A DNA stretch of 64,000 nucleotides from contig JAKVAZ010000003.1 in NCBI GenBank assembly GCA_022447225.1, forward strand, positions 1 through 64,000, given 5' to 3'. Of the stretch, positions 1-18,436 are shown piece after piece; within the stretch, counting starts at the first letter, position 1; every line of letters begins with the position of its first letter. The position numbers and the translations under genes are program-made. The DNA comes from Fuerstiella sp. GTDB taxonomy: Bacteria > Planctomycetota > Planctomycetia > Planctomycetales > Planctomycetaceae. A model generated the notes under the pieces. That model made no database searches and was not told where the DNA came from. It saw only the letters and a list, made by a program, of their open reading frames with translations.

Positions 1-872
1 GCTGCGCCACCGGATCCGTTACGTTCGGTCCATGACCCGCTTTCAATTGAAAAGTCCGGATCGCTGTTGTCCACGATACTGACGGGGACGGAGGTGATGA
101 CGGTGCCGTTAATGTTGAAGTCAAAGGGATTTTCATCACCGTCATCATTGGCGATAGAAAGCAGTCCGTTGAAATTACCATTGGTCGTTGCATCGAGCTG
201 TACGGTGAATGTCGTCTGAGCGCCTGCGGCGACAACCGTATTCGGAGCGATATTACCGATGACGGTGAAACCGGCGGGAACTGTTACGGGTTGCAGTGTG
301 AGATCGGAGGTTCCAACATTTCTGACGGTGAATGTTTTATTGACGGGTGAACCGGTGGTGGTGGTACCAAAGGAGACATTACCTGATCCGTCAGTGATCG
401 ACAGCAGATCATCCAGGACGTTAATTTCAGGTCCAACTGAGGGATTGCTGGTTCTTTCGATGCGAACCGCATCAGCTATGACGTATCCGTCACCGGCATT
501 GGTCAACTGTACGGTCAGTGTTCCGCTGTTGGTCAGGAATGGTCCGGCGAGGTTTTGCCAGGAGACTCCCAGATCGGTGAGATCCGGACTGCCGGATGGT
601 GTCTGTTGCTGATCGACAGGTACGGTGGAGAGGACGTTAGCCCCGTCAAGGATGGTATACGGAGCATTAGTGGCACGGTTGGGATGAGGCGTCCATGTGG
701 TTGATACTCGATACAGAGTTCCGAGTTCCAGATTATTGAATGTCCAGCTGACCACTCCGTTACCGCCGCCGGGGGCTGAGAACCGGTAGGTATCTGCTGC
801 GCCACCGGATCCGTTACGTTCGGTCCATGACCCGCTTTCAATTGAAAAGTCCGGATCGCTGTTGTCCACGAT
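1..872 (-). repeat. Golvesin-like module recurring at 795-bp spacing
   Basis: Bases 1-77 and 796-872 are the same sequence, 795 bp (265 codons) apart and in the same reading frame. Each marks the start of a golvesin-C-like module (protein text IVDNSDPDFSIESGSW). A choice-of-anchor-D-like domain lies between them. The second copy continues beyond the window, so the total number of modules cannot be counted here. Confidence 0.85.
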
Positions 873-3800
873 TTGTGCACCGGAATGTGGCGGAATGACG
901 TTGACGGTGATGGCCACATCGTCAGCGACAGAATTGTTGACACCGTCGGAAACTGTCAGCTGGAAGGTGAGGGTTTCGCCGTTCAGGAGTTCCGGAACAG
1001 TGAAGGTTGGCTGGGCTGCTGCTGCGTCGGAGAGTGTGACCGTGGTACCGGCTGTCTGAATCCATGCAAAAGTGAGTGGTTGAGACTCAGGATCGGTGGA
1101 GGCGGAACCGTCGAGGGTGACGACGTCTCCTTCGTTGACATTCTGATTCGGACCCGCATTGGCAGTGGGGGCATCGTTATCGGCTGAGACGGTGATGGCC
1201 ACATCATCAGCGACAGAATTGTTGACACCGTCGGAAACCGCCAGCTGGAAGGTGAGGGTTTCGCCGTTCAGGAGGTCCGGAACAGTGAAGGTTGGCTGGG
1301 CTGCTGCTGCGTCGGAGAGTGTGACCGCGGTACCGGCTGTCTGAGTCCATGCAAAAGTGAGTGGTTGAGACTCAGGATCGGTGGAGGCGGAACCGTCGAG
1401 GGTGACGACGTCTCCTTCGTTGACATTCTGATCCGGACCCGCATTGGCAGTGGGGGCATCGTTGTGATTACCGAAATCAATTCCACTGATAATCTGTCCG
1501 GTGATGAGGGTGACCGATTGAGTTCCGGGAGTACCGCCACCCGAAGGGATGACCGTCACCACGAAGCTTTGGCTTACAGTGGCGTTGTCAGCGGTGGTTG
1601 CCAGATCACCGTCCGGACCGCCGTCGGTCACCGTGACCGTGATGTTGGAGGTTCCGGTCTGTCCGGAGACAGGAGAAAAAGTGAGAGTGCCTGATGTGTC
1701 GGGAGTTGTGTAATTTACAGTCGGCGTTGGCACGACGGTTGTGTTGCTGCTGATGACCGACACGGCCAATGGCTGGGTTTCACCGGTTCCCGCAGTGACG
1801 CCGGTGAACAAGACGGTCTGCAGACCAGCGTTGTCCTGAATTGTGACTGCGGTGATGGCGTCCAGTGTGGGGGGTTGGTTGGATGGAGGAGTTCCATCAG
1901 TGCCGGTGGCCCGAATTCGCAGATTGTCGATGTTAATCCCTGGTTGCGTCACAGTACCATCGCTGCCAAACTGCAGTCTGAGATTCACAGTTTGACCATC
2001 AAAAGCTGATAGGTCGAATACTGCGGTACCGGTGTTCACGGACCCTCCGCTGTCATAGGCCGTGGTGCCCAGTTGAGCAACCGCTCCGGAATTCAGTGTG
2101 CCATAGGGCAGCCCTGATACAGGGCTAATTAAATTTCCAGGCGGAGAGATGGTCGCTGTGCTGGCCTGGACATTGAAGCCATCCCAGCTGGCTTCTATGT
2201 GTCCGGCATAGTCAAATTCCAGCTGGTTGCCTGTGAATCCGGCGAGATTCACCGTCAGTTCATAAAAAGAATATTCGTTGTTGCCGTAGGCCGGACCGGG
2301 GTGACCCATCATTTGGGTCCCGTTATTTAGTGTGGTATTCGTATTGTTGATCACGAAAGTACCGGAAATAGACTCGTTTCCGCCTAATCCGGACTCAAAG
2401 TCCTGCACGAAGACGTTAACAAATGACACCACACTGGCGGTGTCGGTCACAACGGCGGCTGTGCCGCTGCCGTTGTCTGCGTCATTATAGGTCGCTGTGA
2501 TTGTGTTTCCGGCGAGTACATTGAGTGTACCATCTTCCGTAGATCCGCTGGCGCTGGTGCCCACAGTTGCGGTAAAGACGCCCATACCCGCGGATGTGAG
2601 AGTTACGGTTTCTGTGTCACCTCCAGAGCTGATTAACGTAATCGTGTTGGATGCTGAAACTGACAGATCGATGTCCCGTACCGTTATTCCGACACTGGTC
2701 CCGACCTCGTAGGAAGTAGCGTTGAGCTCGATGGTTCCGGTGCTGGTCGCCGGCAGGTCAAACGCTTCAGTGACGGCCAGAGTGTTGGCACTGCCGCCGT
2801 CATTGGCACTGAATCCCATTCCGCGACGTGCGAAGACTCTCCAGATTGTGTCCTGATTGGCTCCGCCGTTGGCCGCCTGATCGGCAGCCAGTATCGCGTC
2901 CCGAGCGTCAAGAAATGTGGGGTTCGACGGCTGCAGCTTCATGCCGTCCATGACCAGCTGCATCGCGAGGTTGTTGCCGCCGGTGCCGTTGATGAAATCG
3001 GGATCGAAACCCAGACCAACGTTAGGGAGATTCAGATCCAGAGAACTGCCGCCGATCAGTGCCCAGTTTAAATCCCAAAGTGTGGTGGCCCAGACTTCCC
3101 CGACGCCATGCGGCACTGAAAGTCCGCTGGAAATGGATCCGTAGGTGTGTGTGTTGACCGTCGTGTCATACGAATAACGTTGGGTTCGGATCCCGGTGCC
3201 GGTGGTAGGCTGATTAAGCGCGTAGGTGCCTATCCCGCGGCCGTCATTAGCTGTGTCGGTGGCAATCTGTGTGAGCATCAGACCGTGCCAGTCAGACCAG
3301 CCTTCTCCCATGCCACTGCTTTGTTGGGCATTCAGGGCTCCGGCATTTGATGGTCCACCGGTCAGGCGATTGGAGACACCATGACCGTACTCATGGATAA
3401 TGATCCCGTTGTCAAAATCTCCGTCCCGATCGGGAGTTGGTGCGGTCCAGGTATACATCTGCATTCGTGGCGCAGAACCATCGGGCGGGGTGGCAAAATT
3501 GGCATTGTTGGCGTTGCCCACATCGGCGCCGTCCTGGGCCTCTGCCTGAACGGCGTCACCCCCTGTGCCTCCGTTGCCATAGTTGTTGGTCTGGAAATTT
3601 CCCGCTGCTTCATTGAAGCCATAAGCATAGTGTACGTCGTGCAGAATGTTGTTCCAGTAAAACAGATTGGTGACGGCAGCGTCCTGATAAGTCGACGGTG
3701 CCAGGCCCAGATCTACCGGGAAATTGAATGCTAGTGAAGACGTCCCGTCCGGCTGGGAGCCGGAGTCAGGTACGTTGTCGTCATCTCTGTCTGCGTACGC

Positions 3801-6800
3801 AGTAACATTGTTGCCTCGGGTGATTGTGAACTCAGCTCCACTGATACCATCGGTGTCATGCCAGCCAAACGGAGACGCCGTGGTGTCGGCGGGATCGACT
3901 TCCAGAGAGCGTCCGCCGTCACTTGGGCTTTCCTTAGGGACTGCATAGACGTTGTACGTAGCATGCTTGACCCAGTCTGTCAGCCCCGCCATTTCGCCGG
4001 TGTCAGCGGTCACGCTGCCGTCGAACCAGTGGTCGCCGGTTACGGTTTCTAAATTTAATTTCCACGCCAGACGCACTCCACCTGCTGAGTTTGGCACGTA
4101 GGCAAGTTCAGCTGAAACCGGGGAGCGGGCGATCTCGTTGGCCAGCAGAGTCGATGATCGAGCGGTGTCGGAAGCTGAATCCAGCATTATTGGGATGACG
4201 TCTGTTGACAGCCCCAGTTCGCCGGCCATCGCCTGTAGTGCCTGCTCTGCGGACAATGCCGGTGAGGGCGTATCTGCGGTACCCAGTCCACCGATGAATG
4301 CACTGTAGGCGTTCAGTACCTGGCCGGAATCACTCACGTTAATGTTGATATCTGCACCGATCACGGGCAGGCCGCCGTGTAGTTGTCGGAGATAAATGTG
4401 CGTAACCCCCAGACTCTCCGTGCGGTACTGATCTGTGACCACGTACTGATTCAGTTCTGACGCTGTTAGTCCTAACTGACCTGCCTGCGACTGCAGGTAC
4501 GTCATGGCAGTCTCGAGCGGTGCGCCTGCAGTCGTATCAGAGAGCCATTCGTCAGGGTTTATCAGAGCTTGACGTGGTGGCACGTAGTAGGGCGCTGCAA
4601 GGTAGTGGTCGTGATCGTGTCCGTGAGGATCCGCCGCAGCTTGTTTCGCAGTTTCGTGCGAGTGTTCGTGTGATGTTGTTTCTTCGGGATGGGAGTGAGT
4701 TGTTCCGTCGGTGTGCTCGTGTTCGGTTTCGTGCGAGTGTTCGTGTGATGTTGTTTCTTCGGGATGGGAGTGAGTTGTTCCGTCGGCGTGCTCGTGTTCG
4801 GTTTCGTGTGAATGTTCGTGTGGCGTACCGCCTTCGGTATGGGAATGGACAGTTCCGTCCCCGTGTGTGTGACCCGTTTCGCTGCCGAACTCGTGCACAA
4901 CGGTACTGGAGGCCAGTGGGGTGCCTGTTGTGGCCTGTGTTACATCCAGCACAAACAAACCGGAGTTGAAATCAGAGACCAGCACAACCCCACTGGGCAG
5001 GTCTGTATAGACCCCCCATGCGCCGTTAAATTCTGTGGCATCACTTGCGGGAAAGGTGTCGTAGTAACCGGTTTCCTGGACATTGTTCACATCAGAAACA
5101 TCAAACACACGCAGGCCACTTGTGTAATTTGCTTCGAACAGAAAGTTGCCACGAGTTTCGAGGTTATGATCGATGGCTGTGTTGCCGTTTGTGAACGAGC
5201 TTAAAAAGGCCGGTGTGGCGGGAGTGGAAATGTCAAACACGTAAGTCGTGGTTGTGGAAACATTGGTGTTGTTTTGTTCGTCCAGTTCATCATTGATAAA
5301 CAGGTGCTGTTGGTCGGTGCTGAGCGTGCCGTAATGGGAGTAAGTCACATTGGGATAAGGAACAGTGGCCAGTGTGACCATGGCGGCCTTGTTCGTGACA
5401 TCAATTACTTTGAGTCCTTCGGTTTCTGCAAATCCGTAAACGATTTCGCGTCCGGCCGACGGGCCCGTGGTGTAACTGACGATTTCCGCGTCGTGCAGAT
5501 AACGTTCACTCCAGGTGCCAACAATGGTGGGTGCAGCCGGGTTCGTAGCCACATCCACCACCACCAGGCCACCTGCGGCAATGTTGGCTCCCAGCAGATA
5601 AGCAAATCCGCTGTCGGGGTTAATTGCGATGTTGTGGGCTGTCTGCAGTCCGCTGTCGGTGAGTGTGCCCACACTGGTGACGATTCCGGTGTCGATTTGT
5701 GTGAGGTCGACAATCTGCAGCCCACCCGATGTTTCGTTGGTAATATACGCATGTTGAGCGAATGTCTTAATGTCACGCCACGTTGAAGCACCTTTGTTCA
5801 GGTGCACATGGCTTTCAGCTGTTTCGTGGTGCGTGGTCGCCGGCAGTCCTTCATCCGGTCCGGGAACAAAAGCCACAATGGAGGGACTGGCAGGATTTGT
5901 AACCTCAACATAACCTGTGCCGTGCGACAGACCGATAATCGCGTATTCACGACCGGACGGAGAGACGTATCCGGTGATGTCATTTCCTGAGGTATTACCG
6001 CCGGAAAAAGCAGACAGGTCAAACTGACTCAATTTGGTGACATTGAATCCGTTAGGGTCGCTTGACCCGCCTCCGGAGGGAGAAGTTTGTGTCCAGCCTG
6101 GCTGCTGAACTTCACTGACTGTATATGTGCCGCCGGCCAGTCCGCTGAAGGTGTATAAACCTCGTTCTGTTTCCGGGTCAATCGTGCCGTTGTTGTCTAA
6201 ATCTGAATCGGCCGTGACTTGTGTGGTGAGGAGTGTGCCACCGTTATCAAACAGTTGAATCACCCAGCCGTTCAGGCCTGGTTCCCCGGGATCCCGCACA
6301 CCGTCAGCATCCAGGTCGTTCCATTTTTGTCCACGAATTTCACCGGTGTTCTGATTTGCCTGATGATTTCCGAAGTCCCGGCCTGTTACCACCTGTCCGG
6401 CAGTCAGGACCACTGTATGGTTGGCAGATACAGCGACAATCGTAGCGGTGTCAGTTACAGCGGCGGGTGTTCCGCCGCCGCTGTCGGCGTCCTGGTAGGT
6501 GACCGTGATGATATCTCCAACTGCCAGGTTGAGTGTCCCGTCCCCCGCCGTGCCGGTGGATGATGTGTTGATGCTGCCGCTGTAGACACCCGCACTTTGC
6601 TGGGTCAGCGTAATGAATTCGCTGTCAAAGCCGCTCGAGGAAATGTCGACATTCAGTGTGGGGTCGGTGACGTCGGAGTCAGTCACGGTTGCGGTTACGG
6701 AACTGCCGACTGTATATGACTCGGCATTCAGTGTGACAGTTCCTGGAACGGCAGAAGCTGAAAGAATACCTCGATCCACAAACGCACTGCGGATAGCGGC

Positions 6801-9800
6801 CGCATTAGCTCCTGAATTGATATTCACATCGGCCTGCAGAACGGCCTGTGCTCCATCCGGCATCGTAGAATTGGCGGGGAGTCCGAAGTGAGATTCAAGA
6901 ATGACCTTGTCGGCGGTGGTGGCACCGATGGCCGCTCGGATATCCCAAAGGGCACGTGACCAGATTTCCCCGTCAGCGTGGACCTGACCAACGAGATCTG
7001 TTGGGTAGATTTTTGTTCCGTCTACGCGTCTTAAGTTTGGTGGGTTGTCTGAGCTGTAGGATGTGGCATCCCACTCTCCGACAGCAGCGGCGTGGCTGTT
7101 CTGAAACACCGGGTCCCCGACGGAGGCATAGAAACTGGCGGCGAGATAATCGCTGAAGCCTTCTCCCATGGCACCCATCTCGCCACCACCCCAGTTGGCA
7201 TTCTGGTCATGCTGAACAGCATGCCCGTACTCGTGGAGGACAATATCAGTATCTTCTCCATCGTCGACACCACCGTCACCAAAATGAATCGCATCGTTAC
7301 CGGTGGAATAGAAACTATTATCGTTTGTGTCCCAGTGTGCATTGGCCAGAGTTGGGAAATCACGAATCCCGTTGGCAACACCCGTGTCATCGTCGAAACC
7401 CAGCGAATGAAAATATCGCTGGACCGAATCCACTGCATGGTAGATCACTACCTGCTCAAAGCGGTCATCATCTCGAGTGTAATTATAGACTCTGGACATT
7501 TCATTAGCGTCGATGTCCGGCAGAAAGGGGCTGTTCAGTGTGGCCAGGTCGACAAATTCACCTACCAACAGGCCCGTACCCGGGCCTGTCACCGGGTTGA
7601 GCCCCTGCAGCGTCACGGTGACTCGCTGAGCTTCCAGTGTGGGATTATTCGCGTCATTGTTGTCAACGAGATTTGTGCCATTGCCCTGGGATTGCCATGG
7701 ATTTGCTTCGTACACATGACCGGTTCCATCCACATGCGCCATCCTGTCTTCCCGCAGCAGAACTTCGCCGGTCTGCGCATCAACAAGGGTCAGGAAATCG
7801 GCCAGTGGTGCAGCCGAATAAGTCATGGTTCGCCATGCCTGACGAATGCTGCCATCCTGATGTCGAAACCAGACCGGTTCCGAAGTGGTGGAGAGATAGG
7901 TCTCGGTGACACCGGCCGTATCGGCCGCCACATCCTCCGCAGCCACTGCAGTGAGAGCTGTGTTAGCCCGAACAGGAAGTTTTCCTGAAGCATAGCTGGT
8001 GTGTACCGTTTGCACTGTGCCATCGGATCCCTGATTAACGGTCACGTGCGCGCCGTAGACAGGAAGTCCCTGATGGATTTGCTGAAATCGGGTGTAGGTG
8101 CCGGCGAGTCCGTGTTTGACTTCCACCAACTGCAGACTGTCCGGGGCAGCCTGCACATTTAGCTGGGCGCTGTGGTTGGCCAGAAATTCACGGGCTGCGG
8201 CTTCGGGAGTTGTTGCTGTTGGCTGGTATCGCAGTCCGCGATAGGTGGTCCGGGCGCCGACGTTGTCCTGAACAGCTGTGTGCAGATCGAGGGTCGCCGA
8301 ACCGGAGGCGTATGAGGTCAGCGGGGCGGGGATGGGAGAAGTCTGAGTCCATCCTGTCTGTTGAACTTCGTCAACCGTGTAGCTCCCCGCCGCAAGTCCG
8401 GTAAACGCATACAGACCGCTTTCCGTAACGGGATCAATGGTTCCACTACTGTCCAGATCAACGTCAACAGTGGTCTGTGTCGCCAGAAGTGTGCCGCCGT
8501 TGTCAAACAACTGGATTACCCAGCCGTTAAGTCCCGGTTCGGCTGCGTCACGCACTCCATCGTTGTCCAGATCGTTCCATTTTTGTCCGCGTATTTCGCC
8601 GTTGTTCTGTCCCTGTTGTTGATTTCCAAAGTCCAGACCGGTGGCCTGCTGGCCCGCTGTGAGTGTCACGGCATGTGTTCCGGACGCGACGTTTTCAAAC
8701 ACCCGAATGTCATCCAGGTTGATCCCGGGATTGCTGACGCTGCTGTCACTTCCAAACTGTAGACGTACGTTCACTGTTTGCCCATCGAAAGCGGAAAGAT
8801 CAAACACGGCCTGACCTGTATCGAGGGCTTCGTTGCTGTCATAACCGGAGGTTCCAATTTGCGGTACGAGACCGAAATTAGCACTCAATGTGTCGTAAGT
8901 CATTCCCGCCAATGGACTGAGCAGATCGCCCGGAGGATTGATGGCTCCAGAACTTGCCTGGACGTTGAAACCGTCGAACGTGTTTTCGATATGGGCGACA
9001 TAGTCGAACTGCAGTCGAACATCGTTTTGCCCTGTTAAATCTAAAGAGATTTCATAGAACGAATAGTCGGTTGCCCCGTAGTTGGCGGAGTGTCCCATCA
9101 TCTGAGTGCCGTTATTCAGCGGGGCATTCGAGGCATTGATGGAAAAGCTTCCCGCAACGGTTTCATTCGCACCGAGTCCTGTTTCAAAATCCTGAACGAA
9201 GACGTCAGTACTGATCGGTGCCGTCTGAGTCCACCCGGGCTGCTGCACTTCGTTAACGGAGTAAGATCCCGCGGCAAGTTCTGTGAATACATAGATTCCA
9301 CTTTCTGTCTGGGCGTCGATGGTCCCGCTGCTGTCCAGGTCCACATCGGCTGTCACCTGAGTTGCCACCAGTGCGCCGCCGCTGTTAAACAACTGAATTG
9401 TCCAGCCATTCAGGGGAGGTTCATTGGCATCGCGGACGCCGTCACCGTCCAGATCGTTCCATTTTTGTCCCCGAATTTCAGCGGTGTTTACCGCTCCGGT
9501 GGAATGCAGGCCGACAGAGCCCACAAGCTGCGGGATATGAAAAACGGCGGCTCCGGCGTTTTGACTGTCTGTCCCCGACAGCGAAAATTCGCGGTCACCG
9601 ATACGGTCGTTGTTGGGAAGATCGATGGCCCCGGTGCCCATGATCGGGGAGGCACCGCCGGTCGGCTGGACAGACCCGGCTTTGTCGATATGTGAAAGGG
9701 AAACAGTGTGTCCAATTTCGTGAGACAACGTTCCGGAAATGGCATTAGTGGTGAAGCCCAGGTTTCCGGAAGTCAGGGCATTAGATGGTGTGAGTCCTCC

Positions 9801-10688
9801 CAGAGTTACAATGGCATCGGTAAACACGGACGACACGACATCACCGATTTGAATACCGTTGTTGGGACCGGTGCCTCCGGTATTACGAACCACACTTCCC
9901 CCGGCCACACCCAGTGTTCCCCCGGAGTGCGGTCCGGATGTTCCGGTGCCCACCTGAACGTAGTAGTACTCCGTGATTCCGACGGGTGCCGTACCGATAT
10001 CACCAATAACGAAGTCAACGGCAAGATCCTGTCCGGCGGGGCCGGCCACCGTTCCTGCCAGTTCTGTGAAGTAGTCTTCATCGACTTCTGCCATGATCGA
10101 GTTGGCGACAGTGTTAAAATCCTCGGCGGCAAATCCATAGGCCGTCACGTCGAATGTGGTCACCACATTGCCAAAAATGTCGGTCGTGTTGCCCTGTCCT
10201 GATTCTTTGAAATCGACCACAAACGTCAGGGGGTCGGTCGCATGGCTTCCGTCCTGGGCAACGACAGCTGAGTTTGAGGCGGGCACGGGAAACTTAGTGC
10301 AAAGCGCGCTGTCAGGGATCACGCTCTCGAAGAACGCGATCTCTTCCGGAGTGAACATGCCCAGAGGAACGTCGGCTCTCGTTTGGACATGCAGGTCATC
10401 CCCGCATGCGGCAGACAGCAGGACACGCTGTTCCAGTGATTCGATCGCGTTAATGTGGTTTGGGACGGACCGTTGCTGTTGAGTCCGTGGTCGCTGAAAT
10501 TGTCGGTAGACTGCAGGGAAATGACGACGCAGAAAACCACCTGTGTCACTGAATAAGGCACCGAAGGACGTTGCAGTCTGTTCACCGAGTATGGATGAAC
10601 GTTCTTGCCGTGATTTGCTGCGACCTGAGAAAAGATTGCACTTGAGTCGTTCGAAACGTGTGCGCGAGTCCCTGAAGTGCCGTGCCAT
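1..10688 (-). CDS. Giant exported multi-domain metallopeptidase (partial, 3' end outside window)
   Basis: One uninterrupted frame of 3562 codons read from ATG at 10688 and still open at the left edge. An in-frame TGA at 10734-10736 bounds it upstream. Residues 85-92 (LEQRVLLS) match the LEPR-xLL motif found near the N terminus of giant exported planctomycete proteins, which supports the ATG at 10688 over the one at 10358. Domains in order: metzincin-like site HEIGHTVSLSH at 323-333; SdrD-B-like modules near 403-488, 695-782 and 1449-1534; MAM/LamG-like modules near 495-667 and 2757-2928; FTP-like propeptide plus M36 module A (HEYGH at 1152, third ligand E1176 in GEGFSD); LVIVD/choice-of-anchor-B propeller about 1543-1920; His-rich repeat 1932-2028; second propeptide plus M36 module B (HEYGH at 2432, E2462 in GEGWSD); two PKD-like repeats; golvesin-like and choice-of-anchor-D modules. 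It probably acts as a cell-surface or secreted protease/adhesin. Substrate and secretion route are unknown. Confidence 0.9.
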   Translation of the reverse strand, partial: MARHFRDSRTRFERLKCNLFSGRSKSRQERSSILGEQTATSFGALFSDTGGFLRRHFPAVYRQFQRPRTQQQRSVPNHINAIESLEQRVLLSAACGDDLHVQTRADVPLGMFTPEEIAFFESVIPDSALCTKFPVPASNSAVVAQDGSHATDPLTFVVDFKESGQGNTTDIFGNVVTTFDVTAYGFAAEDFNTVANSIMAEVDEDYFTELAGTVAGPAGQDLAVDFVIGDIGTAPVGITEYYYVQVGTGTSGPHSGGTLGVAGGSVVRNTGGTGPNNGIQIGDVVSSVFTDAIVTLGGLTPSNALTSGNLGFTTNAISGTLSHEIGHTVSLSHIDKAGSVQPTGGASPIMGTGAIDLPNNDRIGDREFSLSGTDSQNAGAAVFHIPQLVGSVGLHSTGAVNTAEIRGQKWNDLDGDGVRDANEPPLNGWTIQLFNSGGALVATQVTADVDLDSSGTIDAQTESGIYVFTELAAGSYSVNEVQQPGWTQTAPISTDVFVQDFETGLGANETVAGSFSINASNAPLNNGTQMMGHSANYGATDYSFYEISLDLTGQNDVRLQFDYVAHIENTFDGFNVQASSGAINPPGDLLSPLAGMTYDTLSANFGLVPQIGTSGYDSNEALDTGQAVFDLSAFDGQTVNVRLQFGSDSSVSNPGINLDDIRVFENVASGTHAVTLTAGQQATGLDFGNQQQGQNNGEIRGQKWNDLDNDGVRDAAEPGLNGWVIQLFDNGGTLLATQTTVDVDLDSSGTIDPVTESGLYAFTGLAAGSYTVDEVQQTGWTQTSPIPAPLTSYASGSATLDLHTAVQDNVGARTTYRGLRYQPTATTPEAAAREFLANHSAQLNVQAAPDSLQLVEVKHGLAGTYTRFQQIHQGLPVYGAHVTVNQGSDGTVQTVHTSYASGKLPVRANTALTAVAAEDVAADTAGVTETYLSTTSEPVWFRHQDGSIRQAWRTMTYSAAPLADFLTLVDAQTGEVLLREDRMAHVDGTGHVYEANPWQSQGNGTNLVDNNDANNPTLEAQRVTVTLQGLNPVTGPGTGLLVGEFVDLATLNSPFLPDIDANEMSRVYNYTRDDDRFEQVVIYHAVDSVQRYFHSLGFDDDTGVANGIRDFPTLANAHWDTNDNSFYSTGNDAIHFGDGGVDDGEDTDIVLHEYGHAVQHDQNANWGGGEMGAMGEGFSDYLAASFYASVGDPVFQNSHAAAVGEWDATSYSSDNPPNLRRVDGTKIYPTDLVGQVHADGEIWSRALWDIRAAIGATTADKVILESHFGLPANSTMPDGAQAVLQADVNINSGANAAAIRSAFVDRGILSASAVPGTVTLNAESYTVGSSVTATVTDSDVTDPTLNVDISSSGFDSEFITLTQQSAGVYSGSINTSSTGTAGDGTLNLAVGDIITVTYQDADSGGGTPAAVTDTATIVAVSANHTVVLTAGQVVTGRDFGNHQANQNTGEIRGQKWNDLDADGVRDPGEPGLNGWVIQLFDNGGTLLTTQVTADSDLDNNGTIDPETERGLYTFSGLAGGTYTVSEVQQPGWTQTSPSGGGSSDPNGFNVTKLSQFDLSAFSGGNTSGNDITGYVSPSGREYAIIGLSHGTGYVEVTNPASPSIVAFVPGPDEGLPATTHHETAESHVHLNKGASTWRDIKTFAQHAYITNETSGGLQIVDLTQIDTGIVTSVGTLTDSGLQTAHNIAINPDSGFAYLLGANIAAGGLVVVDVATNPAAPTIVGTWSERYLHDAEIVSYTTGPSAGREIVYGFAETEGLKVIDVTNKAAMVTLATVPYPNVTYSHYGTLSTDQQHLFINDELDEQNNTNVSTTTTYVFDISTPATPAFLSSFTNGNTAIDHNLETRGNFLFEANYTSGLRVFDVSDVNNVQETGYYDTFPASDATEFNGAWGVYTDLPSGVVLVSDFNSGLFVLDVTQATTGTPLASSTVVHEFGSETGHTHGDGTVHSHTEGGTPHEHSHETEHEHADGTTHSHPEETTSHEHSHETEHEHTDGTTHSHPEETTSHEHSHETAKQAAADPHGHDHDHYLAAPYYVPPRQALINPDEWLSDTTAGAPLETAMTYLQSQAGQLGLTASELNQYVVTDQYRTESLGVTHIYLRQLHGGLPVIGADININVSDSGQVLNAYSAFIGGLGTADTPSPALSAEQALQAMAGELGLSTDVIPIMLDSASDTARSSTLLANEIARSPVSAELAYVPNSAGGVRLAWKLNLETVTGDHWFDGSVTADTGEMAGLTDWVKHATYNVYAVPKESPSDGGRSLEVDPADTTASPFGWHDTDGISGAEFTITRGNNVTAYADRDDDNVPDSGSQPDGTSSLAFNFPVDLGLAPSTYQDAAVTNLFYWNNILHDVHYAYGFNEAAGNFQTNNYGNGGTGGDAVQAEAQDGADVGNANNANFATPPDGSAPRMQMYTWTAPTPDRDGDFDNGIIIHEYGHGVSNRLTGGPSNAGALNAQQSSGMGEGWSDWHGLMLTQIATDTANDGRGIGTYALNQPTTGTGIRTQRYSYDTTVNTHTYGSISSGLSVPHGVGEVWATTLWDLNWALIGGSSLDLNLPNVGLGFDPDFINGTGGNNLAMQLVMDGMKLQPSNPTFLDARDAILAADQAANGGANQDTIWRVFARRGMGFSANDGGSANTLAVTEAFDLPATSTGTIELNATSYEVGTSVGITVRDIDLSVSASNTITLISSGGDTETVTLTSAGMGVFTATVGTSASGSTEDGTLNVLAGNTITATYNDADNGSGTAAVVTDTASVVSFVNVFVQDFESGLGGNESISGTFVINNTNTTLNNGTQMMGHPGPAYGNNEYSFYELTVNLAGFTGNQLEFDYAGHIEASWDGFNVQASTATISPPGNLISPVSGLPYGTLNSGAVAQLGTTAYDSGGSVNTGTAVFDLSAFDGQTVNLRLQFGSDGTVTQPGINIDNLRIRATGTDGTPPSNQPPTLDAITAVTIQDNAGLQTVLFTGVTAGTGETQPLAVSVISSNTTVVPTPTVNYTTPDTSGTLTFSPVSGQTGTSNITVTVTDGGPDGDLATTADNATVSQSFVVTVIPSGGGTPGTQSVTLITGQIISGIDFGNHNDAPTANAGPDQNVNEGDVVTLDGSASTDPESQPLTFAWTQTAGTAVTLSDAAAAQPTFTVPDLLNGETLTFQLAVSDGVNNSVADDVAITVSADNDAPTANAGPNQNVNEGDVVTLDGSASTDPESQPLTFAWIQTAGTTVTLSDAAAAQPTFTVPELLNGETLTFQLTVSDGVNNSVADDVAITVNVIPPHSGAQIVDNSDPDFSIESGSWTERNGSGGAADTYRFSAPGGGNGVVSWTFNNLELGTLYRVSTTWTPHPNRATNAPYTILDGANVLSTVPVDQQQTPSGSPDLTDLGVSWQNLAGPFLTNSGTLTVQLTNAGDGYVIADAVRIERTSNPSVGPEINVLDDLLSITDGSGNVSFGTTTTGSPVNKTFTVRNVGTSDLTLQPVTVPAGFTVIGNIAPNTVVAAGAQTTFTVQLDATTNGNFNGLLSIANDDGDENPFDFNINGTVITSVPVSIVDNSDPDFSIESGSWTERNGSGGA
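908..1477 (-). repeat. Two near-identical 285-bp tandem PKD-like repeats
   Basis: Copies of 285 bp (95 codons) at about 908-1192 and 1193-1477 differ at only a handful of positions. Each encodes a PKD-like/REJ-like beta-sandwich beginning PTANAGP(D/N)QNVNEGD. The unit length is a multiple of three, so unequal recombination would change domain number without breaking the frame. Confidence 0.85.
4605..4895 (-). repeat. Histidine-rich coding repeat inside the giant protease
   Basis: Residues 1932-2028 of the giant protein hold 26 histidines in 97 residues. Two perfect or near-perfect 75-bp (25-codon) units at about 4651-4725 and 4726-4800 encode EHEH(A/T)DGTTHSHPEETT followed by SHEHSHET. A degenerate third unit and a terminal HGHDHDH flank them. 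Clustered His with Asp/Glu is typical of divalent-metal-binding segments; a zinc-binding role is inferred. The repeat sits between the LVIVD-type propeller and the propeptide of M36 module B. Confidence 0.9.
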
Positions 10689-12322: not shown

Positions 12323-15300
12323 CTATTTTACGGCCTCCGTGACCTGCAGTTTGAACTCGTTACTGTTACCGACAAGTTCCGGGGCGTACATTCCTTTAAT
12401 GCGAGCCGGGAGGGCGGACATGCGGCCGGGTGTTTCTGCACGCAGACGGTAGTTGATGCTGTGGTTGCCTCGAGCGAGCCTGGAAATAAAGAAGGACACT
12501 CGGTCGTCCCGCAGTTCGCGATAGGCTCGCAGTCCGCTGTTGACGTAACCACTGCGTCGATCGTCCGGTTCGAAGCCACTTGGCTTATGGTCTTCCAGGA
12601 GGAGATACTCGTAGTCGTTTTTACTATCGATGAGCAGCTCAACTTCGACCAGCTCACCACTTTTGACCTGGTCGAAGTTCGCCAGCGGGATCCGCTTCCA
12701 TCGTGTCGTTCGCTGCCTCACCGATTGGCCCCTGTCACCTCGAACGCTCACCTGGTCGTCGTTCCGTTCGAGTCGATAAAATTGTCGTCGCACTTTTACT
12801 TCCAGACCGGCGGCCGTCACAGGATCTTCCTGAGTGAAAAACGTCAGGTACGCGTTGAAATAAACCGGTCCGGTTCCCGTTCGACGAATTTCGATGTTGC
12901 GGGCTCCCGTGTGTACCGTGTCTCCTTCCAGCAGCATCATATTGTCAAAGCTGAAGAAGTTCTCAGCGTTGATCCTGACGCGTTTGTGCAGTTGACCATC
13001 AATCGAGACCTCCACGGTCATGTCAGGACGATCTTCACCAGTTGCGTCGATGTATTCGGCCATCGATTCAATCACGACAGCTGTGTCACGTGTGCTGCCC
13101 CAGTGTCCGTCGGTTCTTCGATTATTCAGCAGATACTTGACCACACGTGGTGCCGTTATGTCTTTTGGACGCACTTTCAGCAGGAGGCGAAGGTACATTG
13201 CGTGTGTTTCGTTCTCATTGCCATACCAGTACCACCGGCGACTGCCAGGCAGCCTGAGCCAGGCCGTTTGATTCTCATCGTCCCGTTGCAGGTATTGCTC
13301 AACGTTCCGCAGAATTATGTCCCGCCGATCATTTGATGATTGACTGTGCAGCACCAAACCCGTCAGACACATTCCGTAGACACTGAGTTGCAGACGGTCG
13401 CGATCAAGATAATCAGTCATGGCCGGGTTGTTGCCATTGTGTTCAGACAACACCCAGGCGACCAGGGCATCCATGTTCCCCGCCTGCATTCGAAATGACC
13501 GACGACTACCGTTGGGGGATTCTCTGAATTCACGACGCCTGTCCCCTTCCTGAAGTTTGACCAGTTCGGCAGCCTGGTATGACTTCAGCCAGAGGACGCC
13601 TCGGTTGATCACATCCGGAAGGACGGGAACATCATTTACCTGGGCCACAGACAATCCATGGACAACCAGGGCGGTGAGATGCGGTGATGAGTGTTCTCCA
13701 TAGCCGGAGAACCAGCCCCATCCCCCGTCAGAGAGTTGCATGTCCGTGAGTGCCTGTACCCCATTGCGAACGATTCGGTTCATTTCGTCTGTGTCGAAGA
13801 CCGGGTTTGGATTTCGAGTGTTCCATCGCTGTTTGCTTTTTGCGGAATTAATGATTTCCTGAGCGTTCAGGTTTGTACGTTTTATTCGAATTGCTTCCAG
13901 ATCAAGACCCATGTTCACGAGTGTGCGCTGTGTGAGCACTGCCGGCAGGAACCGGTTTAAGGTTTGTTCCGTACAGCCGTAGGGGTATTCGATGAGATAG
14001 GGCAGCGCATCAACCATGGTTCCCGCGAGTGAAGGACTGTAACGAATCTCCAATCGAGACTGCTGTTCGATGCGTCGGGCCGGAACGTGAAGCTGCAATT
14101 GTGCTGAATCCTGGCCAGGGCGAATGGCGCCGGCAAAGCTTTCGGTCTTGAGAATGCCATGGATCTGAGCCGGTACGGTCAGTTCCACGGCATCAGATTC
14201 TTCGTTGGTGAGTGCCTTCATGCGCACCACAGCATTCCCTGAAGCAACGACCTGCACCGGCCAGTCAACTCGGGCTTCGCCGCCTGGTTCGATCTTCACC
14301 GTTTGTGTCGACGTTGTGAGGTGTCGCAGTTGTCCACCTTCGGTTTCCAGCACCACATCTACGTCTTTGGCCGTGTTTAGGTCGTTGTGTACGATGGCTG
14401 ACAGAGTGATTTGATCCTTTTGAGTGAAGAATCGCGGCGACTGTGGTCGAATGATGAGCTTCCTGCTGCAGATGATGTCTGTGGTCCCGGACCCGACACG
14501 GGTTCCCCTTCCGAGTGTCCAGACCTTAATCTTCCACGTTGTCAGATTGTCGGGCAGATCGAATTGTGCTGTGATTAAACCATCGGCATTGGAATCGACC
14601 GAGGCCAGCCACAGTGCCGTGTCGGTGAAAACAGAACGCACGGTCGGTTCCACAGAGGCGGTACTGTCAGCAGATAAACCGTCATCCGCCATCGCCATTG
14701 GGGAACCAGGCGACTCTTTTTCTTCCATCCGACTCGACCTCAACACACGGCCGCCGGTGTTACCGAGGGGCATGATCGGTGTGGGAGAACCGCCTGACAG
14801 AGGCTGCATCGGTCGGTCCCCCTTTCGGAACAGGGGAACCGAGATCCGCTGCAGTGTGGAGGTAACCCGCGATTGATGCTGTCTGCGGATGTTCCAGAAA
14901 AACTTGCGGATCTCCTGACTTGTACTCGCTGCGATGTACTCAAGACTCGCATCGTATGCTGTCAGGATGGCATTGCCCACAAATGGTCTGCCGGACTCAT
15001 CACGGAGTTTCACCGTGACTTCGGCAGATTCGCCAGGTCGGTATTCCTTCTGAGAGGCCACCACTTCAACCTCCGCTACTTTTTGTACCGGCGGGACAAA
15101 TATTTGTTTCATTGCGGAATGCAGGCGACCATTGGCAATGGTCAGGGCCTCAACGTATATATTGGGCATGTCCTCCGGTCGAATCTTCAGGTTGTATGTC
15201 GTACTCTTGCCTTTCAGACGAATGACTTCCGGTTGAGGACAGACCCCGTTCACGGGGCGTACGAACAACAGGACTGTGCTGTCGGGAAGATTCGTGTTGA

Positions 15301-18300
15301 TCTGAATTACGGCCGTTTCACCTGGTTGATAGTCACGTTTTTCGACAATCAGTTCCAGATCGTTAAAACGATACCCGCGTTGGGCGTCACCGGGGCCGCG
15401 GACGTAAAGCAACTGACCGCCTTCCAGGGTTGTTCCCTCAACATCAGTTACACTGCAGGACACTCGATACTGACCCGCCTGCGGAATGACGGCTTTAAAT
15501 GACGTCGAGCCGTCTTCACCGGTCGCAATATCAAATGTCTCGACCTCTCGCTCCTCGGCGTCATTGCCATTCCAGGTAACCTGCAGCAGTCTTCCGGTGA
15601 CAGGTCCTTCGACTCTTCTTCCGTCGGATGTTCGGGCCTGCAGGTTAACAGTGACCGTGTCTCCGGTCTGGTAGTGGCCTCGATCCGTCCAGACGAATAC
15701 CTTAAATGGCTTTCGTGCCACCAGAACGTCACCTTCCGCAAATATTGTACGACGAGACTGATCCATCACTTCGGCAGTGATACGGTACAGGTGATCGCTG
15801 TCGGAGTGGTGCTGTCGTGCTGATTCTGTATCGATCTTCACTGCAAGCGTCCCGTCGGCCCCGATAGCTGCATCTCCTTCTGCAACAACCTCCGGCGGAT
15901 CAAAACTCCAGCCCGACCACCGCGGAGTCGGACCGAAACAGCCCCACTGATGCCAGCCTGGATACCAGGCTGAATCGGGGGGGAACCACCAGTAGCCGGG
16001 ACTAAACAGCCAGTCCCACTGCGTTTTCGGGAACCACCGATTGTCTTGCGTCGTGCGTTCGATCCTATAGCGAACTCTACCATTGCTGACGGGGGCACCG
16101 AAGTAATAGCGTGCATTGATGACTGCTGAAATGGTCTCGCCCGGTTTCACTGGTTCATCGGGGGCGTCGATACTGACTTCGAACTCAGGCTTGCGGTATT
16201 CTTCCACCTGGAAATCTCCGCTGCCAATGGCCGGCTTGTTGCTGCGATTGTCGTTTCGACAGATTGCCAGCGTATAGCTGCCCGGAACGGCGTCGGCCGG
16301 AACGGGCCAGGTTCCGTCGATCCCCCCCCATCGATCGGTGGTTACGCTGCGTTCTTCAGTAACGTCCCCTCGAGGGTTGTACACCTGCAGCACAAAAGAT
16401 GTATGAGCATACCTGGCTTCCTTTTCATGAAAGCGAGGCTGACGTATCCACATGCGAAATTTCACTTCGTGTTCCGGTCTGTACACCGGACGATCGGTCA
16501 CTACATAGACTTTGACAGGACTGTCGTGTAGTTCGTGTAGTGGCTGTGCTTTCCAGAAACGACTGAAGCCATCGAACGCCAGACCTCCCGCGTCGGTTCT
16601 GGCAACAGTCACCCACCGCATCCGACTGTGCTGTTCAGGAGCAACCACACACAATCCATTTCCGTCGGTTCGATCGGTAAACCGGCGAGTGATAACGTGG
16701 TGGTTGCGAGTGCGACCAATCCGTTTCTGACGGAAGCCAAAAAACTCCATGCCGGCTCGATCCGCCGGAGCACCGGTTGCAGCGTCTGCCACGAAGTAAA
16801 GCGTACCGTCTTCAATATGTTTTTTCGTGATCGATGTGTCTGCAATCCACAGTACGATCCGTGATGTATTGCCGTCTCTGATTGTTGCTTCGACCCAGTA
16901 GGCACCTGCCTTTTTAAGAGGAGTCGTGACCGATTCCTGGACGTCAAAGTGCCCTTCCTTTGGTGTCAGATCCAGTTCCCAGCTGGCGACAGGTTTTCCC
17001 AGATATTTACTTCGGTTGTCATTGATCAGACGATAGCCCACGTTCTGGATTTGTATTCTGTTGTGATCAAGCTGCGCGGGGCGGTCTTCAAGGTACTCAC
17101 GTGTGTCTGACAGGAGTTGTTCGATGTCGATGGGACGGGCGGTGAAACTTGCCTGGCTGCCATTTCGAAAACGGATATCAAGAACTGCTCCCTGACCGGC
17201 GGACTGAGTCCTCGCCGTCTCAAACTGAATCTGGTTGTCTTCGATTTGCCTGATGCGTTTACGCAGCTGACTGCGAACCTTGGGCTGTCGAGTCAGTTCG
17301 AGTGCATTTCGGAGCAGGGCAGCCGCCTGTGGATACTGATGACGATTCATACGCACCTGAATCATCATGTCAATCGCCTGTTTCTGTTGGCTGTCTTTTC
17401 GATCAATCACTCGTTGAATGACGGCAATGTGATTGAATTCTTCCGGAAGACTGAGTCTTCGTTCACCAATTGCCAGTCGTGCCAGTGTTTCTGTATCGTC
17501 CAGTTGATGCAGAGTGAACCCGGCAACAGATCGATCTCCTGTAGTTCGCGTGACCGGAGCCAGTTGATGCGTCGTGGAGCGGACGCCGAACTGCCTGACC
17601 AGGAACCGGGCCCATTCCAGGTCCACAGCACTCTGACGGTTCGGAGCAAGCAGTACCTGCTGTGCCATTGCCCACCGCCACCGCTCTCCGTCGGAGCTGC
17701 CCGTTTCCCAGGAATTCGGAACATGAAACAGCACCGGGTCGCCCTCTTCATCGACTGGTGCGTCTGGCGGGGAATGACCGTAACTTTCAAAGTGATGGTT
17801 GCCGGACAGGTTTTGATAGCCCGGAAGCACGGTCAGGTCAGTGAGATCCTGCAATTTCCATGGTTGTGATAATCGCTCCTGACCGGTGATATTTGCGAGT
17901 AGGCCCCACACATTTGCTTTTGCTTCCGGCGTCGCGTCTTCTGCCTGTTCGAGTGCTGCCAGCGTTTTTAGCAAAAGCTGGATCGACCGGACCCGGTCTC
18001 GCGCCTCCGATGAAGCATACTGGCCGTTACCACGATGCTCTCCACGTTCAAACTGTCCGCCGATAACAAATCCGTGGTGATCAATTGCTTCACCGAATAA
18101 CTGACCCGCCGTGAGCAGCAACTGCCAGTCATTGTTGTGAATCTCGATTGCCGTCTCGACCAGCTGGTCGAATTCATTGACTCGATTGAGGTGTTGCAGA
18201 CAGTTTACGGCGTTGCTGAGATCATCTGCAGTGAACTGTCCGCCATTGTCGGAATCTTCAATCAGCTTCCGAAACACCTCCAGTGCCTCCGCATAATTGC

Positions 18301-18436
18301 CGTTCTTAAGCAACTTAACGGCTCGGTGTCGCGACTCCCCGGATACCTGTGGTGATATCGTCCCCAGCAATTGCTGAAGCAGTAAGACAAACAACAGGAC
18401 GGCGCACACACCCGTACAGAAGATGGACTTTGGCAT
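12323..18436 (-). CDS. Bacterial alpha-2-macroglobulin with thioester motif
   Basis: The 2037-residue protein begins with a hydrophobic signal sequence (about residues 1-33) and a helical TPR-like region to about residue 200. Macroglobulin-type beta domains follow (YRPEHEVKF near 650), then the alpha-2-macroglobulin core (TALWLASVD near 1270), and the thioester site GCTEQ with Cys1488 and Gln1491. Bacterial A2Ms trap attacking proteases: bait cleavage exposes the Cys-Gln thioester, which then bonds covalently to the protease. The alpha-alpha barrel (thioester domain) continues with NRFLPAVLTQ and the GGWGWFSGYGEHSSP repeat text, and a receptor-like C-terminal domain ends the protein. The start is supported by AAGGA nine bases upstream. 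The usual partner pbpC (PBP1C) is not adjacent. I see no lipobox, so it is more likely periplasmic or secreted than a lipoprotein. Confidence 0.92.
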   Translation of the reverse strand: MPKSIFCTGVCAVLLFVLLLQQLLGTISPQVSGESRHRAVKLLKNGNYAEALEVFRKLIEDSDNGGQFTADDLSNAVNCLQHLNRVNEFDQLVETAIEIHNNDWQLLLTAGQLFGEAIDHHGFVIGGQFERGEHRGNGQYASSEARDRVRSIQLLLKTLAALEQAEDATPEAKANVWGLLANITGQERLSQPWKLQDLTDLTVLPGYQNLSGNHHFESYGHSPPDAPVDEEGDPVLFHVPNSWETGSSDGERWRWAMAQQVLLAPNRQSAVDLEWARFLVRQFGVRSTTHQLAPVTRTTGDRSVAGFTLHQLDDTETLARLAIGERRLSLPEEFNHIAVIQRVIDRKDSQQKQAIDMMIQVRMNRHQYPQAAALLRNALELTRQPKVRSQLRKRIRQIEDNQIQFETARTQSAGQGAVLDIRFRNGSQASFTARPIDIEQLLSDTREYLEDRPAQLDHNRIQIQNVGYRLINDNRSKYLGKPVASWELDLTPKEGHFDVQESVTTPLKKAGAYWVEATIRDGNTSRIVLWIADTSITKKHIEDGTLYFVADAATGAPADRAGMEFFGFRQKRIGRTRNHHVITRRFTDRTDGNGLCVVAPEQHSRMRWVTVARTDAGGLAFDGFSRFWKAQPLHELHDSPVKVYVVTDRPVYRPEHEVKFRMWIRQPRFHEKEARYAHTSFVLQVYNPRGDVTEERSVTTDRWGGIDGTWPVPADAVPGSYTLAICRNDNRSNKPAIGSGDFQVEEYRKPEFEVSIDAPDEPVKPGETISAVINARYYFGAPVSNGRVRYRIERTTQDNRWFPKTQWDWLFSPGYWWFPPDSAWYPGWHQWGCFGPTPRWSGWSFDPPEVVAEGDAAIGADGTLAVKIDTESARQHHSDSDHLYRITAEVMDQSRRTIFAEGDVLVARKPFKVFVWTDRGHYQTGDTVTVNLQARTSDGRRVEGPVTGRLLQVTWNGNDAEEREVETFDIATGEDGSTSFKAVIPQAGQYRVSCSVTDVEGTTLEGGQLLYVRGPGDAQRGYRFNDLELIVEKRDYQPGETAVIQINTNLPDSTVLLFVRPVNGVCPQPEVIRLKGKSTTYNLKIRPEDMPNIYVEALTIANGRLHSAMKQIFVPPVQKVAEVEVVASQKEYRPGESAEVTVKLRDESGRPFVGNAILTAYDASLEYIAASTSQEIRKFFWNIRRQHQSRVTSTLQRISVPLFRKGDRPMQPLSGGSPTPIMPLGNTGGRVLRSSRMEEKESPGSPMAMADDGLSADSTASVEPTVRSVFTDTALWLASVDSNADGLITAQFDLPDNLTTWKIKVWTLGRGTRVGSGTTDIICSRKLIIRPQSPRFFTQKDQITLSAIVHNDLNTAKDVDVVLETEGGQLRHLTTSTQTVKIEPGGEARVDWPVQVVASGNAVVRMKALTNEESDAVELTVPAQIHGILKTESFAGAIRPGQDSAQLQLHVPARRIEQQSRLEIRYSPSLAGTMVDALPYLIEYPYGCTEQTLNRFLPAVLTQRTLVNMGLDLEAIRIKRTNLNAQEIINSAKSKQRWNTRNPNPVFDTDEMNRIVRNGVQALTDMQLSDGGWGWFSGYGEHSSPHLTALVVHGLSVAQVNDVPVLPDVINRGVLWLKSYQAAELVKLQEGDRRREFRESPNGSRRSFRMQAGNMDALVAWVLSEHNGNNPAMTDYLDRDRLQLSVYGMCLTGLVLHSQSSNDRRDIILRNVEQYLQRDDENQTAWLRLPGSRRWYWYGNENETHAMYLRLLLKVRPKDITAPRVVKYLLNNRRTDGHWGSTRDTAVVIESMAEYIDATGEDRPDMTVEVSIDGQLHKRVRINAENFFSFDNMMLLEGDTVHTGARNIEIRRTGTGPVYFNAYLTFFTQEDPVTAAGLEVKVRRQFYRLERNDDQVSVRGDRGQSVRQRTTRWKRIPLANFDQVKSGELVEVELLIDSKNDYEYLLLEDHKPSGFEPDDRRSGYVNSGLRAYRELRDDRVSFFISRLARGNHSINYRLRAETPGRMSALPARIKGMYAPELVGNSNEFKLQVTEAVK

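Follow-up and report, generated by a model that had tools for sequence, protein, structure and literature searches.

A giant planctomycete gene joining three unlike zinc-protease-type domains, with two putative zymogens set within split SdrD_B domains

The window analyzed here, the first 64,000 nucleotides of a Fuerstiella sp. contig (JAKVAZ010000003.1, our contig C3), opens with a single minus-strand reading frame that runs from an ATG at 10688 down to position 3, a distance of 3,562 codons with zero stops. An open frame of this length is not a chance occurrence, and its codon-position GC is similar along residues 7-3306. Because the frame runs off the start of contig C3, the C-terminus of the encoded protein is missing and its length can only be given as at least 3,562 residues. 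Positions 1-77 of the window, which encode the beginning of another Golvesin_C domain, are an exact copy of 796-872, and the contig end therefore falls within an internal repeat; no continuation of the gene was found on the other contigs, a DNA search having given only a 42-base partial match on contig C6, away from the contig-end repeat. Residue numbers in what follows are those of the translation P0001, which starts at a TTG upstream, six residues before the ATG at 10688, such that residue n of an earlier sequence-only reading of this DNA is residue n+6 here. That reading had proposed one unbroken polypeptide with three zinc-protease sites, the second and third each provided with its own propeptide-like domain. 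The frame bears this out, with HEIGHTVSLSH (323-333 in the earlier numbering) at residues 329-339, HEYGH at 1158 and 2438, and the glutamates of the GEG(F/W)SD motifs at 1182 and 2468 (formerly 1152/1176 and 2432/2462), while Pfam gives two FTP stretches and two M36 stretches. Three more HExxH strings (1963, 1988 and 2013) are part of a tandem repeat rich in His and were left out of the count of protease sites.

All features of the chain lie on the minus strand. Near the N-terminus one finds a LEPR-XLL-like motif, LEQRVLLSA (10407-10445), which scores 15.4 bits against NCBIfam NF012209, under the cut-off of 17; as no clearly hydrophobic segment is present in the first 200 residues either (best 19-residue mean 1.02), export can only be presumed. 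The metzincin-like domain that follows (9489-10256, residues 151-406) is delineated by a 27-row alignment and by weak profile matches, and contains HEIGHTVSLSH at 9690-9722 and a candidate Met-turn, Met356, at 9639-9641. The three histidines, the glutamate and the methionine are invariant in all 27 rows. These rows comprise the window itself, the paralogue that its genome carries on contig C16, and 25 further genomes represented by one locus each; in the window, the methionine lies 17 residues past the third histidine. This is the His/Glu/His/His pattern and following Met of the metzincins, such as reprolysin, matrixin and the DUF4953 Met-zincins. Unlike these, in which the consensus HExxHxxGxxH has Gly, the window family has Ser in its place, or Ala in one of the 27 rows, and no Pfam family is matched above its cut-off: Reprolysin_3 gives 13.4 bits for the window domain (cut-off 22.4) and DUF4953 gives 20.8 bits for the C16 paralogue (cut-off 24.2). 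Among the 36 PDB profile matches listed, 34 carry metzincin names, the remaining pair being a coat protein of a phage and a minor capsid protein; with a best E value of 0.067, none of them is significant. Judged from these sequence features, the N-terminal site appears to be a member of an unnamed metzincin-like family. A cysteine switch involving Cys101 or Cys136 was considered and rejected, both residues being absent at the equivalent places in the three nearest relatives read.

Members of this family are found elsewhere, often in very long frames. The second one in the Fuerstiella genome, on contig C16 (L089:2825-9322, plus strand), has HELGHTLSLRH in a frame of 2,166 aa. In genome G050, contig C21 (L036/L082), the open frame around one relative reaches 18,985 aa; for three further relatives the frames measure between 5,398 and 6,808 aa. 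Each site-bearing frame in the nine metzincin regions read has one HExxH, several of these frames ending at the region edge. No relatives were found on plasmids; in viral contigs, relatives were found on one contig, twice, and in another scan on none. A viral-collection contig, IMGVR_UViG_3300032261_002202, encodes a 331-aa metzincin-like protein, 38% identical to the window domain (L173:886-1881, plus strand), in a neighborhood with a frame that is terminase-like by eye.

The second protease-type domain, module 1 (6744-8312, residues 799-1321), consists of an FTP domain (7995-8099) and a catalytic domain with HEYGH at 7221-7235, a downstream glutamate (Glu1182) and a GxVH histidine (His1243). 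The sequence-only reading had taken it for one of two complete M36 modules, a description that does not hold. Its match to Pfam M36, although above the cut-off at 45.3 bits, spans positions 178-364 of 368 only; against Peptidase_M4_C it scores 15.3 bits, below the cut-off of 24.4 that its relatives L106 and L129 pass; and its profile matches thermolysin, fungalysin-type and elastase structures alike. The glutamate ligand is found 24 residues past the first histidine, a thermolysin-like spacing as opposed to the 30 of module 2, and a spacing of 24 or 25 is seen in 62 of the 70 relatives (of 75) in which the script located the site. When the window is aligned with 43 relatives, the HExxH residues and the glutamate are conserved in 90% or more of the rows. 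With its nearest relatives, L098, L099 and L121 (55-60% identity, a single HExxH each), module 1 groups at support 100/99 in a tree that places it outside the M36 clade and far from module 2, with the caveat that the long-branch row L218 may be misplaced. Module 1 is thus best classed as an M4/M36 intermediate, and not as a plain M36 enzyme. Its relatives are M4/M36-type proteases of Actinoplanes, Kribbella, Streptomyces, Chloroflexi and Methanoperedens, which have the HEYGH-type site in common with it, and an FTP domain as well in all three relatives scanned over that region (L121, L099 and L106). No second HExxH is present in the 21 of the 75 loci whose frames were read. Unlike these relatives, module 1 is embedded within an SdrD_B domain of the giant protein.

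Module 2 (2805-4448), on the other hand, fits the M36 description well. It comprises an FTP domain at 4302-4448 (residues 2087-2135) and a catalytic domain at 2805-3959 (residues 2250-2634) that keeps HExxH (HEYGH, 3381-3395), the downstream glutamate (Glu2468) and the GxVH-type histidine (His2533). The Pfam M36 model (PF02128) is matched over its full length (480.3 bits, positions 1-368 of 368, cut-off 23.3), and a solved extracellular metalloproteinase is matched at E 3.1e-93. Its spacing from HExxH to the glutamate is 30; of 39 M36 loci requested, the script located the site in 26, and 23 of these share that spacing. In the tree the module falls among M36 enzymes of its own planctomycete family. 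Module 2 has the complete catalytic domain, the FTP propeptide and the ligand spacing of the MEROPS M36 fungalysins and is by sequence a true, plain member of that family. Tandem duplication of one protease was considered as the origin of the two modules and rejected because of their low identity (27% and 25%, over two alignable stretches of about 210 residues) and their separate, well supported clades. What stands of the original proposal, then, is that there are three separate zinc-protease-type domains, two of them with an FTP propeptide; that both of these are M36 enzymes of one kind has to be given up, as does the counting of the N-terminal site as a third clan, since metzincins, M36 and M4 all belong to MEROPS clan MA.

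The suggestion that this architecture is unusual is supported by our surveys, the combination having been found in no other genome examined. M36 matches (E 0.001) occur in 25 of 170 genomes of the family and in 59 of 392 sampled genomes of the phylum, which, with the window genome counted in both samples, gives 83 planctomycete genomes with a match. Within this family and phylum sample, two M36 matches in one frame are found in a single genome of the 83, the window's own, and in none of the 82 others. A metzincin and an M36 domain joined in one frame were not found among 20 regions around M36 or metzincin relatives. Of two same-genus genomes, one (loci L087 and L176) shows the metzincin, the SdrD_B domain and the beginning of the MAM insert arranged as in the window for as far as its contig reaches; in the second, neither metzincin nor M36 is present. 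A small and narrow search of the open-access literature turned up no bacterial protein in which three unlike zinc proteases share a chain. Several peptidase domains per chain are also a property of the polyserases, carboxypeptidase D and somatic ACE, the last of which has two domains. These, however, are animal proteins in which one family is repeated, whereas the giant protein is bacterial and draws on three different families.

The zymogen modules are embedded in a framework of SdrD_B domains, of which Pfam finds three stretches (102 bits in total, cut-off 29.7). These split hosts had escaped the sequence-only reading. The body of host 1 (9216-9482; Lys415, Glu486) matches Pfam positions 8-77 of 112 and that of host 2 (8337-8600; Lys709, Glu780) positions 8-74, the body of host 3 (6081-6344; Lys1461, Glu1532) being the third stretch. 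The early stop of the Pfam match, at 77 and 74, says little on its own, because one contiguous relative stops at 79 and others stop at 98 or 112. The last strand of each host, however, comes later in the chain, as VTLTAGQQATGLDFGN for host 1 (8622-8669, residues 680-695), as VVLTAGQVVTGRDFGN for host 2 (6366-6413, residues 1432-1447) and as VTLITGQIISGIDFGN for host 3 (1467-1514, residues 3065-3080), and each host is therefore split before its last strand. A strict form of the closing-strand motif occurs zero times in 2,000 shuffles of the giant protein, and a looser form 0.18 times per shuffle.

Into all three hosts the inserts enter at one same spot. Host 1 contains an InhA-like MAM domain (8697-9200), of which Pfam PF20773 covers residues 631-669 only and whose start was set by eye from its resemblance to the second MAM copy. 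Host 2 contains module 1, followed by sequence that is Ig-like by eye. The insert of host 3, about 1,520 residues in length, is made up of a choice-of-anchor B domain (4947-6044; NCBIfam TIGR04312, 301.7 bits, cut-off 100), a His-rich region, module 2 and the second InhA-like MAM domain (1899-2258; PF20773). The closing strand of host 3 is the least sure of the three, given the length of this insert and given that no SdrD_B domain comes after it. The His-rich region, a run of 75-nt tandem repeats at 4602-4874, stands shortly before the propeptide of module 2, and could conceivably buffer zinc. Beyond the last closing strand the chain continues with two PKD-type domains (903-1463; DNA 97% identical over 276 nt), a Golvesin_C domain (453-872) and a choice-of-anchor D domain (135-419), the latter two by Pfam/NCBIfam.

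Split hosts of this kind are not confined to the window. Of 29 split Lys-type domains that have another SdrD_B domain after them, 25 allowed a closing strand to be placed when the last residue was left free; 22 of these 25 strands end in Asn, two of the 22 being the window's own. In the contiguous Lys-type domains the strand was placed in 20 of 22 and ends in Asn in 16, in Gly in 3 and in Asp in 1. In the contiguous non-Lys domains it was placed in 74 of 94, with Asn in 9, and in the split non-Lys domains in 5 of 8, with Asn in 2, all of these rows being related sequences and not independent events. As the Lys-type loci were chosen by likeness to the window host and the others mostly by Pfam score, the split shares of Lys and non-Lys domains are not comparable. 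In control frames, the closing-strand pattern occurs about 2 times per 1,000 residues when a final Asp is allowed and 0.86 times per 1,000 residues in its stricter form. The cargo of the relatives is varied. Four of 10 inserts scanned score above a Pfam cut-off, as carbonic anhydrase (149.8 bits), a lysyl-oxidase-like domain (33.9), PPC (37.7) and FG-GAP repeats (85.8), while three match LTD or PQQ below cut-off and three match nothing; in L178, a P-domain is found between host body and closing strand. The carbonic anhydrase lies inside a split SdrD_B domain at L185:670-1542 (minus strand), and the next host in that frame begins with a very similar insert, cut by the locus end. An insert of ~85 residues bearing the motif ELDQ...NWGG recurs in many split SdrD_B hosts (L177, L180, L181, L187, L188 and others), with no Pfam match in the two examined (L187 and L177).

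Each of the three window hosts has a Lys/Glu/Asn triad, at 415/486/695, 709/780/1447 and 1461/1532/3080, in positions which correspond in contiguous relatives to a Lys on the first strand, a Glu before Gly-Trp and an Asn on the last strand. The Lys is present in 22 of 101 non-redundant contiguous SdrD_B domains; these have the Glu in 22 of 22 cases and the Asn in 21, the remaining one having Asp. The 79 domains without the Lys have the Glu in 12 cases and the Asn in 10, and in those 10 the Glu is present too. Ranked by mutual information among 4,186 column pairs, Glu-Asn comes 2nd, Lys-Asn 528th and Lys-Glu 852nd. A first regular-expression test on 19 contiguous rows gave no significant Lys-Asn link (Fisher p 0.47), its last-strand pattern being too loose, and a profile was used in its place. 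A 2025 survey predicts an isopeptide bond for SdrD_B domains, with the example Lys159/Glu218/Asn248 (PMC12617251). The window triads are this published triad, in which the bond itself is a prediction.

Domain insertion as such is already known. According to the same survey, CnaA and CnaB folds accept insertions in loops, usually of isopeptide or adhesion domains, and in RrgA and Spy0125 inserts occur even between the bonding residues (PMC12617251). The pilus proteins RrgA, GBS104 and Spy0125 resemble the window protein in that large domains interrupt an isopeptide-forming domain of Ig-like type, between the residues that bond; the inserts named for them there are vWFA, thioester and CnaB domains, whereas in the window protease zymogens are inserted as well, and the host is an SdrD_B domain (PMC12617251). 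Protease zymogens are not mentioned as cargo in the part of the survey available (PMC12617251).

Taken together, the domain order, the conserved catalytic residues, the split hosts and the Lys-Glu-Asn triads fit best, with a probability that we put at roughly 0.55, with an exported planctomycete multi-protease scaffold, in which zymogens held in SdrD_B hosts remain tethered after self-activation. One chain would bring together a protease of metzincin-like type and two zymogens that represent different subfamilies of the gluzincins. Both zymogens, like the MAM domain, lie between host body and last strand, and for this reason each host would close round its cargo. Thermolysins and fungalysins with an FTP domain remove their own propeptide, and self-processing of both zymogens is by this analogy plausible. 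Once exported, each zymogen would thus remove its FTP propeptide and, in so doing, nick the chain within the insert; strand pairing between the host halves, probably reinforced by a Lys-Asn isopeptide bond, would then prevent the pieces from separating, and the end product would be an extracellular protease array fixed on a stalk. We infer in this scheme the export, the activity, the self-cleavage, the bond and the substrate.

A simpler account is one of domain shuffling, whereby the protein is again exported and carries several proteases, the SdrD_B domains are split and form no bond, and self-cleavage frees or trims the proteases. In its favor, the B domains of staphylococcal SdrD are not known to form such an isopeptide bond. 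Ten of the contiguous domains have Glu and Asn with no Lys, a pattern in keeping with this account, as is the tolerance of CnaA/CnaB loops for insertions noted in the survey (PMC12617251). Against it, the triad is complete in all three window hosts and in most split Lys-type hosts with a placed strand, and coincides with the residues predicted for SdrD_B in the survey (PMC12617251). We consider a scaffold of this bond-free kind unlikely, while taking it seriously. The protein might instead be an adhesin in which one or more of the three protease sites is degenerate and binds without activity. Most giant genes are reported to code for surface proteins or synthetases (PMC5177795), and the metzincin-like family, with its Ser or Ala for Gly and its lack of a Pfam match over cut-off, could be seen as such a case; however, the zinc ligands, the catalytic Glu and the Met of that family are invariant in 27 rows, and modules 1 and 2 retain HExxH, the downstream Glu and the GxVH-type histidine. 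We consider such an adhesin improbable.

An assembly artefact, in which two or three protease genes had been fused into a chimera, might be suspected from a contig end that falls in an internal repeat and from a combination unique to this genome among those searched. It is hard to reconcile with a stop-free frame of similar codon-position GC over residues 7-3306, with the same metzincin-SdrD_B-MAM start order in a second genome of the genus (L087, L176) up to its contig end, and with inserts that join their hosts at the same spot three times; we regard a chimera as very improbable.

Returning to the tethered multi-protease scaffold, its split hosts matter more than the presence of three proteases on one chain. 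They raise the tentative idea, against which we would wager if not heavily, that planctomycete SdrD_B domains serve as covalent clasps round whole enzymes. With the body placed before the enzyme and the bond-forming strand after it, the bond would link both ends of the insert; in the window the cargo would be a protease zymogen that cuts its own chain yet remains tethered, and in relatives the same clasp would hold various modules, carbonic anhydrase and a lysyl-oxidase-like domain among them. A similar layout is found in SpyRing-cyclized enzymes (SpyTag/SpyCatcher), in which an enzyme is placed between two halves of a bond-forming CnaB domain. The SpyRing is engineered, however, and uses another CnaB domain, while the window arrangement is natural and its bond a predicted one. 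To our knowledge, tying the ends of an enzyme together by an isopeptide bond is known so far only as an engineering trick. If the bond does form across the insert, there would be a natural way of doing so, and with it new split pairs that accommodate large inserts. Were the clasp proposal true, it would also provide one purpose for some of the giant genes of planctomycetes, the function of which is discussed as open in the literature (PMC5177795).

The second gene upstream of the giant gene, on the same strand (12323-18436, minus), encodes a bacterial alpha-2-macroglobulin of 2,037 aa, with a bait region, a thioester domain (TED) and CTEQ at residue 1488. Bacterial alpha-2-macroglobulins trap proteases, and a link to the protease gene is therefore a lead only, with a role as a guard against the cell's own protease being possible.
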